Below are positions 36,082-38,674 of a stretch of 52,268 nucleotides of DNA, piece by piece. The first letter of the stretch is position 1. Every line of letters begins with the position of its first letter. The DNA lies in NCBI GenBank assembly GCA_026461395.1, contig JAPJNA010000074.1, positions 1 to 52,268 on the forward strand. The letters run 5' to 3'. The DNA comes from Chthoniobacterales bacterium. Its GTDB lineage: Bacteria; Verrucomicrobiota; Verrucomicrobiia; Chthoniobacterales; UBA6821. Both the position numbers and the translations under genes were made by a program. Under the pieces are notes generated by a model that was not told where the DNA came from, did no database searches, and saw nothing but the letters and a program-made list of their open reading frames with translations.

Positions 36082-36903
36082 ATGTCTGTTCTTAACATCG
36101 CTGCCTACAAGTTTGCGGAGCTGACCCAGCTTCCAGAACTGCGCGCGCGGTTAAAGGCCGAGTGCCTCTCTTTGGAACTCAAAGGGAGCATTCTGATTAG
36201 CCCCGAGGGTATCAATCTCTTCATCGCCGGGGAATCGACCGCCGTAGAGTCGTTACTTGAGATACTCCGCTCAATTCCTGGCCTCGAGACGCTTGAAGTC
36301 AAGCGCAGCGAGAGTGACGCGCAGCCCTTCAACCGGATGCTCGTGAAGTTGAAGGAAGAAATCATCGCCTTCGGTGTCGAGGGGATCAATCCAGCCCGTC
36401 ATACCGCGCCGAAGATTTCCGCCAAGGAACTCAAACAGTGGCTGGATGAGGGACGGGAGTTCACCCTGCTCGATACCCGCAACACCTACGAAGTGAAGCT
36501 CGGCACCTTCGCCGGAGCCGTCACGCTACCGATCCGCCACTTCCGGAAGTTTCCCGAGGCCGTGAAGCAACTTCCTGAGACGATGAAAGAGGTTCCCGTC
36601 GTCAGCTTCTGCACCGGCGGGATTCGCTGCGAAAAGGCCTCACCACTCCTGGAGCGTGAGGGTTTCCGAGAGGTCTACCAGCTCGAGGGAGGCATCCTGA
36701 AGTACTTCGAGGAATGCGGTGGAGCCCACTGGGAGGGTGAGTGTTTCGTCTTCGACAAGCGCGTGGGAGTCGATCCCGCACTACAGGAAACCAATAGTCA
36801 GCTCTGCTTCGCCTGCACCGAGCCATTGACCGAGGAAGAGCTCAAGGATCCTCGGTATGTTTGTGAGATCAGCTGCCCCTACTGCTTCGACGAGAAGGCT
36901 TAA
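36082..36903 (+). CDS. trhO: tRNA uridine(34) hydroxylase (rhodanese-like)
   Basis: A 273-residue TrhO/UPF0176 protein. The N-terminal domain ([18 protein letters not shown]) is followed by a rhodanese domain (about 113-215) with [16 protein letters not shown] and the active-site loop [14 protein letters not shown] Cys-rich C-terminus ([17 protein letters not shown]) completes it. TrhO hydroxylates U34 of some tRNAs in an oxygen-dependent way. Its stop codon overlaps that of hisF on the other strand. Confidence 0.94.
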
Positions 36904-37664
36904 ACAGGTTTTCTGACCGGGATGCCGTACGCGGCAAGCTCCCTCTTCACATCGCCGACGGTATAATGTCCAAAGTGGAAGATGCTGGCGGCGAGGACGG
37001 CATCGGCTTTCCCGACCGTAAGAACTTCGGCCATGTGGGCGATGTCCCCTGCCCCGCCGCTGGCGATTACCGGGATGCCTATGGCGTCGCTCACTGCTGC
37101 GGTGAGTTCAAGATCGTAGCCTTTCTTCGTTCCGTCGGAGTCCATGCTGGTGAGGAGGATCTCCCCGGCACCGCGCTTGGCGACTTCCTTGGCCCAGTCA
37201 ACAGCCTGCCATGTAGTTGGTCTGCGCCCACCGTGGGTGTGGACGATCCATCCACCCTTCCCATCCCTGCGTGCGTCAATGGCTACAACGACGCACTGGG
37301 AGCCGAACCCCTCGGCTGAGGCGTTCACGAGGTTCGGATCATCGAGAGCAGCAGTGTTCATGCTCACCTTGTCGGCTCCTGCTAGGAGCATGGCGCGCAC
37401 ATCCTCGACCTTACGGATTCCTCCACCGACCGTGAGGGGCATAAAGCAGGCATCGGCCGTCTTCTCGACGACCTCGCGCATCGTTGCGCGCCCTTCGTGA
37501 GAAGCAGTAATGTCGAGAAAGACCAACTCGTCGGCACCCTGAGCGTCGTAAGCACGCGCACACTCGACCGGATCTCCCGCGTCACGGATATTCTCAAACT
37601 TGGTTCCCTTGACGACACGACCTCCGTCGACGTCGAGACAGGGTATGATGCGTTTGCCGAGCAT
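36900..37664 (-). CDS. hisF: Imidazole glycerol phosphate synthase, cyclase subunit
   Basis: The 254-residue TIM barrel begins [20 protein letters not shown] with the catalytic Asp (D11), continues [20 protein letters not shown], and has the second catalytic Asp in [14 protein letters not shown], then [13 protein letters not shown]. HisF uses ammonia from HisH to make imidazole glycerol phosphate in histidine synthesis. No hisH is in the window. Length is normal. Confidence 0.97.
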
Positions 37665-37710
37665 CGGGAGAGCTTAAAGGTTGAAGTATGAATTATGAAG
37701 TATGAAAAGG

Positions 37711-37856
37711 TGCTGTCATCAAGTGTTTGGACGCAGGAAGTTTGATAAGGACAACCAAGCCGCTGGGGAGCGGTGCGGTGGACGACCGCAGGGAGCCCGT
37801 ATGGGCGGCACCGCTTGCCGGGAGGCAAGTGCCGTCAAAAGGGAAAGGAACTTTTA
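37711..37856 (+). ncRNA. Candidate structured RNA or palindrome array upstream of the amidase gene
   Basis: Four hairpins follow one another with almost no gap: CCGCT/AGCGG (37760-37773), TGCGGT/ACCGCA (37774-37790), GCCC/GGGC (37795-37806) and a 10-bp stem with a bulge, GGCAC..TTGCC/GGCAA..GTGCC (37807-37833). AAAAG/CTTTT (37837-37855) could close the end. The GC content contrasts with the AT-rich flanks. It lies 54 bases before the amidase start. I do not recognise it as a known riboswitch, SRP, RNase P or 6S RNA. A decayed mobile-element end is an equal possibility; strand is assumed from the downstream gene. Confidence 0.35.
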
Positions 37857-37909
37857 GAGTCTTAAAAAGTTGCTTGAGGGCATTGGTGGCTTAAATTCGT
37901 TTCTTCATC

Positions 37910-38575
37910 ATGACTCAACGTGTCTTCATGATCTGCGCCCTGCGATGCCTGCCTCTTTTGGCTCTTTTGCTACTGCCTGGATGTGCTCTCTTTGAGGAGG
38001 GGGCGAGCCTTTCCAATTTCCACACAGTGGTTCTGGATCCGGGTCACGGGGGCTATGACAACGGGGCAAAGGCTGTCCGGGGCCTGAGTGAAAAGATGCT
38101 GACGCTCGATGTGGCCCGACGCGTGAAACCCCTTCTCGAAGCCCGCGGCTATCATGTGGTCATGACGCGCACCTCCGATGTCTTCATCCCGCTCGGGACC
38201 AGGACCGCTATTGCCAACTCCCGCACTGACGCGGCTTTCGTGAGCATCCACTTCAACTCTGCCTCCCGTCGTGCGGCGAACGGCGTTGAGACCTATTACT
38301 ACAATCCGCGCTCGGCCCCACTCGCCTCGAACATCCTGCGGGAGATCGCCACCTGCTATGGCTCCCACAGTCGGGGAACAAAATTCGCCCGCTACTATGT
38401 GCTCCATCACAACCAGCGTCCGGCTACGCTGCTCGAGTTGGGGTTTGTCTCCAATGCGCAGGAGAACAATCTCCTCCAGAACCCCTCCGTCCGTCAGCGT
38501 CTTGCTGAGAAAATCGCTGCCGGCATCTCCCGCGGCCACGGCGGCCGGGCGCCGGTGGCAACCAGTGGGGGATAG
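37910..38575 (+). CDS. N-acetylmuramoyl-L-alanine amidase, lipoprotein
   Basis: The 221-residue protein starts with a lipoprotein signal (ALRCLPLLALLLLPGC, lipobox LPGC with C25). The Amidase_3 zinc domain follows: VLDPGHGGYDNGAK (His ligand), EKMLTLDVA (Glu ligand), VSIHFNSAS (His ligand) and LLELGFVSNAQENNLL (catalytic Glu). It cleaves the amide bond between MurNAc and the peptide in cell-wall turnover, probably at the inner face of the outer membrane or periplasm. The TAG stop lies inside the left arm of a palindromic repeat. Confidence 0.93.
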   Translation: MTQRVFMICALRCLPLLALLLLPGCALFEEGASLSNFHTVVLDPGHGGYDNGAKAVRGLSEKMLTLDVARRVKPLLEARGYHVVMTRTSDVFIPLGTRTAIANSRTDAAFVSIHFNSASRRAANGVETYYYNPRSAPLASNILREIATCYGSHSRGTKFARYYVLHHNQRPATLLELGFVSNAQENNLLQNPSVRQRLAEKIAAGISRGHGGRAPVATSGG

Positions 38576-38674
38576 GAAATAGGGAATGGGATCTAGGGCA
38601 TCGGCTCTAGGAGACTGGAAAAATCTGCTCCGCTAAAAATTCGGAGATCTTCCCGTCATCCCCTATTACCTATC
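38571..38674. repeat. Inverted repeat at the end of the amidase gene
   Basis: GATAGGAAATAGGGAATG (from 38571) faces CATCCCCTATTACCTATC (38657-38674); 16 of 18 positions pair. The left arm supplies the amidase stop codon. The spacer is 68 bases. Confidence 0.75.

Follow-up and report, generated by a model that had tools for sequence, protein, structure and literature searches.

The window analysed here is the whole 52,268-nucleotide stretch of contig JAPJNA010000074.1, from the assembly of a Chthoniobacterales bacterium (GCA_026461395.1). Within it, the starts of a hisF-like gene and of a gene named as an amidase in a preliminary description face away from each other across a gap, in which a GC-rich island stands out from AT-richer surroundings, as that description had reported. 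It had also placed a run of four adjacent hairpins here, at 37711-37856. The hairpins are present at about 37759-37834 and their fold is backed by covariation, but the unit to which they belong is shorter, covering 37752-37838. It is a single copy of a dispersed element of about 90 nt (element A), of the form 5'-SAA-CCAAG...GTCAA-3' with four stems. The loops GGGG, GTAT and GGGA belong to stems 1, 3 and 4, as claimed. For stem 2 the earlier account holds in part: a stem of 5 bp appears in the lowest-energy fold of the window copy, but the family pairs 37783-37795 instead, and the window copy, in which stem 2 is degenerate, departs from that pairing. The features are collected in Table 1.

Table 1. 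Features of the window copy of element A and of its flanks.
Feature	Position	Strand	Basis or remark
Whole element	37752..37838	+	covariance model positions 1-90; model R1 86.9 bits, E 1.3e-19; model R2 83.6 bits
Left tetranucleotide ACAA (NSAA class)	37751..37754	+	sequence; ACAA is the left end in 4/117 host copies
Right end TCAA	37835..37838	+	sequence; TCAA is the right end in 105/117 host and 16/21 viral copies
Stem 1, loop GGGG	37759..37774	+	8/9 pairs with two-sided changes across the family
Stem 1 outer helix, ACC/GGT, beyond a 2x2 internal loop	37754-37756/37777-37779	+	
Stem 2	37783..37795	+	length varies in the family; 7/7 family pairs with two-sided changes
Stem 3, CCC/GGG, loop GTAT	37796..37805	+	93.4% of cells paired; two-sided changes in just 1/3 pairs
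Stem 4, 3-nt bulge (CnG), loop GGGA	37806..37834	+	8/11 pairs with two-sided changes (helices 4 and 5)
Short heptamer-like array (TTGAAGTATGAATTATGAAGTATGAAAA), upstream of the element	37681..37708	+	read by eye
hisF-like gene	36900..37664	-	ORF; start 87 nt from the element
Amidase gene (name from the preliminary description)	37910..38575	+	ORF; start 71 nt past the element

Folding energy provides modest evidence for this structure and is insufficient alone, so the reality of the fold is decided by comparative data. For 37750-37840, the plus strand folded as RNA gave a z-score of -2.22 (5 of 200 shuffles equally good), the same segment as DNA -2.86 (1 of 200) and the minus strand as RNA -1.69 (11 of 200); the wider segment 37700-37909 gave -1.95 (9 of 200), and the minus strand of 37665-37880 gave -2.87 (0 of 200). 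Among 71 non-redundant copies, standard pairs fill 91.0% of cells, and the compensatory changes that the preliminary description had proposed to seek among homologues were found as two-sided changes in 24 of 30 pairs. The covariation score of these copies is 0.378 versus 0.125 when shuffled, a value reached by 0 of 500 shuffles, and sliding the pairing partners by 1-3 columns as a control reduces the score to 0.055 or less. When the alignment is extended by distant relatives and viral copies, double changes occur in 30/30 pairs and the score rises to 0.524. The 22 distinct viral copies give 0.402, although one measure of the five used, further pair types, stays within the range of the shuffles (193/500). 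The model itself served to fit the viral and extended alignments, which are thereby biased towards its fold.

One strand is favoured both by the loops and by the tolerated pairs. Of the 71 copies, 50 have a GNRA loop on stem 1 and 51 have one on stem 4, and G.U and G.A pairs occupy 48 and 54 cells, against 32 and 18 for their equivalents on the other strand. GNRA-type loops are stable in DNA as well, so they do not distinguish RNA from single-stranded DNA. Rfam 15 scans of the window and of eight loci, including the B and C forms described below, gave the element no match, with only tRNA reaching the gathering score, in agreement with the earlier statement that no known RNA family explains the region.

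Other copies are numerous in the same genome. The genome search suggested in the preliminary description, performed as BLAST of 37690-37909 against the 2.03 Mb and 80 contigs of the assembly, returned 12 further copies at E <= 7.1e-4 and another at E 0.0086, spanning about 37750-37838 with 71-83% identity. A sequence search of 58 genomes matched 15 of the 16 members of the Spartobacteria genus concerned, its own genome included, and 0 of 42 genomes outside it. The covariance model R2, applied to 197 genomes of the order, again matched 15/16 genomes of the genus and, at E <= 0.001, 18 others: 2 in a sister genus, 15 in a family designated f7 and 1 in another, f6. Stem order is preserved in the f7 relatives, whose sequences differ. 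A wider model, R3, run under strict filters on 387 genomes across the phylum, had matches at E <= 1e-4 in 4 of them. Copy number differs between genomes in the R2 search, where some 22 candidates were scored in each genome and all counts are therefore lower bounds (at least 22 copies in the genome of the window). Near-identical copies lie at the ends of three contigs of that genome (C11, C17 and C34), so the assembly probably broke at the repeat, with copy numbers underestimated as a result. A strict pattern found 60 stretches in named genomes, with 57 records titled Spartobacteria, 2 Akkermansiaceae and 1 Proteobacteria. The Proteobacteria title looks wrong because that contig (L171) belongs to a genus member, G003, and the two Akkermansiaceae-titled contigs (L180 and L181) end within the element and may be misbinned.

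The window insertion is common to three other genomes of the genus, with model scores of 86.9 bits in the window, 88.0 in G010, 86.3 in G014 and 41.3 in G004. The neighbour proteins, among which are the orthologues from G004 and G014, include His_biosynth matches. The G004 copy has decayed, with bases missing from stem 4, an observation that counts against an indispensable leader for hisF or the amidase gene. A regulatory leader had been suggested earlier, and the location in a divergent gap, 71 and 87 nt from two gene starts, would suit a leader or attenuator. Given that the same element adjoins many unrelated genes, that its G004 orthologue is decayed and that its last stem is not followed by a U-run, such a leader is extremely unlikely for either gene. 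The element probably does not act as a control switch for the adjacent gene; in the window it represents an ordinary insertion between the hisF and amidase genes.

The element is also carried by viruses. Three patterns were used to collect 25 IMG/VR contigs, of which R3 matched 20 at E <= 0.01; the set is partly redundant, as L208, L209 and L214 are near-copies of each other. On two of these contigs, PHROGs recognised 5 of 6 proteins as terminase, portal, head protease, major head and tape-measure proteins. The window copy itself had no BLAST match among phage and plasmid records. The elements are intergenic and antisense to the neighbouring genes in the L209/L212, L210, L213, L284 and L286 groups, and in L286, L278, L291 and L212 the TGA of a gene falls inside the terminal TTGAC of the element; L285 and L215 are exceptions to this placement. 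Conserved viral positions antisense to late genes could mean a function, and the strong conservation of structure would fit a functional RNA too. The element would then be a structured small RNA, another of the earlier suggestions, regulatory or used by phages, kept for its RNA activity while it travels as a passenger of mobile islands or phages. Covariation in both host and viral copies, the GNRA loops with G.U and G.A tolerated on one strand, and the antisense position conserved in several viral contigs are all consistent with such an RNA. We nevertheless consider it unlikely, given the diverse neighbours, the variable copy number and the lack of any strong rule of orientation among the 70 host copies that could be classified, together with the decay of the window orthologue in G004 and the differences between filled and empty sites set out next.

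The ends of the element were compared in 117 distinct host copies, which remained of 150 aligned once short, edge and duplicate rows were removed, and in 21 distinct copies among 40 viral ones. On the left, NGAA is found in 89 of the 117 host copies (TGAA in 45) and TCAA in 19 of the 21 viral copies, and TCAA predominates on the right in both groups (Table 1). Together with the site comparisons below, these ends support insertion beside an NSAA-like sequence, namely TCAA in phages and mostly NGAA in hosts, with the cut uncertain by a few bases. The ACAA at the left of the window copy is probably target-site sequence, with the same uncertainty of a few bases in the cut.

Filled and empty versions of the same site point the same way, if indirectly. 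At one viral junction, filled in L286, L291 and L278, the empty relative L283 has one TCAA where two flank the element, and at another, filled in L278 and empty in L286, one TCAA is likewise present in the empty site, along with a small extra difference. A host site that is filled in G004 and G007 is empty in the genome of the window (L051) and reads AAGGC-TGAA-GTTGAAA, with a second, longer difference alongside. One host and two viral sites thus have a single NSAA in the empty relative and NSAA-element-TCAA in the filled one. Two further host sites, one filled in G004 and G006 and the other in G003, are empty in G001 and G014 and there read TGCA, not NSAA. Three host comparisons (68, 108 and 77) and the viral pair L274/L291 were left out as too diverged or carrying extra sequence.

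Because the left and right ends of host copies differ systematically, a plain 4-bp duplication is unlikely in hosts; target duplication may apply to the phage copies, judging from the TCAA on both their sides. The flanks of 63 contexts, drawn from 83 distinct rows and 253 hits, were compared as a test for target duplication of fixed length. Flanking 4-mers are equal in 6 contexts, compared with 0.30 expected and a maximum of 3 in 200 shuffles, and they are spread over several registers, which fits insertion into arrays better than a single duplication length.

Tandem arrays are enriched beside the element. Arrays of period 7 lie within 70 nt of 27 of the 117 copies, compared with 30 of 946 random places, and period 8 is also raised (6 versus 5 in the same samples); periods 5, 6 and 9 give 0, 0 and 2 beside copies versus 1, 1 and 5 at random places. 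Short tandem arrays, for instance ATAGGGA-like ones, are also found between genes away from the element, at 38578-38600 of the window and at many other loci. Genes for a four-helix-bundle IVP (23S rRNA IVP) occur in 13 of the 16 genus genomes, some of them near A elements, and the one at about 1850-2350 of L063 (reverse strand) has heptamer arrays running in opposite directions on its two flanks; nothing specific emerged from a look at the association of IVP genes with the element in those 13 genomes. A similarity of 22 nt to another locus (L019, in C10) resembles RNase P RNA on inspection by eye.

The genes around the element are varied, and it shows no preference for any of them. Of 152 distinct host copies, 25 are near a contig end, 56 overlap an ORF of at least 80 aa, 1 has no neighbour and 70 could be classified; we think that the overlapping ORFs are mostly spurious. 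The classified copies lie between convergent genes (24), antisense to both neighbours (19), between divergent genes (14) or between co-directional ones (13). A Pfam scan of 147 neighbour proteins matched each family in at most 3 of them, NTP_transf_2, HepT-like, PIN, AAA_21, RadC and His_biosynth among them, and the search for neighbour families in this set found no cognate gene.

Families of toxin-antitoxin and defence type among these neighbours recall integrons, whose attC sites are folded single-strand sites between TA-type genes, with end boxes GTTRRRY and RYYYAAC. The element might accordingly be read as an attC-like site for a tyrosine recombinase that marks gene cassettes in toxin-antitoxin or defence islands. 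Several intergenic copies share one strand in C67 and C34, and in the genome of the window copies lie near integrase-like genes (L056 in C71 and L057 in C30); in C71 a tRNA-Gly gene separates element and integrase, and in C30 no tRNA was found. The consensus, inspected by eye, is unlike attC in having no such end boxes, the integron integrase model TIGR02249 had no match over its cut-off in the genome of the window, and housekeeping genes also flank copies, with no arrangement restricted to cassettes. An attC-like site is therefore improbable.

A search for a mobilising enzyme found none. Y1 transposases occur in 2 of 16 genus genomes (G007 and G004); the genome of the window had none at E <= 0.01, and there was none in 20 viral records that may be fragmentary. 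For most genomes of the genus, then, the mobilising enzyme is not a detectable Y1 transposase. TnpB (PF07282) is found in 0 of 16 genus genomes, which tells against the earlier suggestion of a TnpB-type guide-RNA scaffold. A group II intron or other retroelement is not supported, as the reverse transcriptase domain PF00078 is present in just 1 of the 16 hosts.

REP sequences are palindromes of 20-50 nt preceded by GTAG and accompanied by a tnpA-REP gene, and REPs and REPINs are thought to move as single-stranded DNA, according to the account in PMC8266576. The element resembles them as a dispersed, intergenic, palindromic repeat, and the Y1-type proteins of G007 and G004 would fit a REP or REPIN mobilised by a RAYT transposase. 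It differs from them in its four stems, its NSAA/TCAA ends and the usual lack of a Y1 gene, which was not found in 14 of 16 genomes, that of the window included, and R3 had no match in the loci of 3.2-3.3 kb around three Y1 genes. We regard this origin as very improbable.

A closer likeness is offered by the PATEs (palindrome-associated transposable elements) of Haloquadratum walsbyi. As described in PMC3119063, these elements of IS200/IS605 type are too short for a transposase, have no terminal inverted repeats, carry palindromes near both ends and insert without target duplication in connection with a short oligonucleotide; their movement took place even though one strain has only pseudogenes for its IS200-type transposases. 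Element A is likewise too short for a transposase, has ends (CCAAG and TCAA) that are not inverted copies of each other and carries palindromes near both ends. It may also insert beside a short NSAA-like oligonucleotide, although two host empty sites read TGCA and a duplication is conceivable in the phage copies. Unlike PATEs, it is filled over its whole length of about 90 nt by four covarying stems and occurs in phage contigs too; none of the loci read held a related full-length transposon, and TnpB and Y1 are found in 0 and 2 of the 16 hosts. The element works like a PATE, yet is not classed as one.

Two other types of repeat share single traits with it. The bcr1-type repeats of Bacillus cereus are short and mobile-looking, with a conserved fold and compensatory changes, and differ from the element in length, taxon and target. 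The TAACTGA repeats of Beggiatoaceae and Cyanobacteria are, in the account given in PMC4679880, intergenic direct repeats of one heptamer with an unknown mechanism; here, many different heptamers occur, with a structured element alongside. A description of the element itself was not found in the open-access literature.

Further structured elements accompany it. Element B, of about 100 nt (AAAAGGCG...GGCAGAYAA), occurs by itself in L036, L041, L071, L106 and the viral L212; elsewhere it is nested at one fixed point within the A copies of G007 in L039, L063, L086 and L149. A third type, C (CGAACCCTTGGGAAGGGT...GAGTTCAA), has the same stem order and lies within stem 4 of some A copies (L086, L039 and L063).

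Element A is dispersed and covarying, and is present both in host genomes and in viral contigs. Most likely, the region in the window holds one copy of a mobile element that is non-autonomous, about 90 nt long and folded into four hairpins; the element has apparently spread by jumping through one group of Spartobacteria and some phages. Of the three earlier suggestions, the end of a mobile element comes closest, given the dispersal and the filled and empty sites, but what lies here is a whole small element, not an end. We propose that an enzyme acting in trans would recognise the folded strand, more likely as single-stranded DNA than as RNA, and would join the ends at NSAA-like sites without conventional target duplication, for which heptamer arrays with a TGAA in each unit would be convenient landing places. 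By analogy with IS200/IS605 elements and PATEs, an HUH single-strand enzyme is a tentative candidate, well short of an even prospect. It is possible, if rather doubtful, that A, B and C form a superfamily that spreads via an undescribed enzyme acting on a folded single strand, with phages ferrying it between hosts and the NSAA preference tying it to the heptamer arrays.

The genomes of the genus are small, at 1.4-2.8 Mb. In two reservoirs, Spartobacteria MAGs of 1.83-2.27 Mb, not known to belong to the same genus, have median intergenic gaps below 38 bp according to PMC5673642. The genomes of the genus nonetheless carry many of these elements of about 90 bp, in common with phage contigs and usually without the expected transposase. 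Covariance models together with empty sites make the movement of transposase-free bacterial repeats directly testable, and they caution against taking every structured island in such a genome for a riboswitch or an sRNA.
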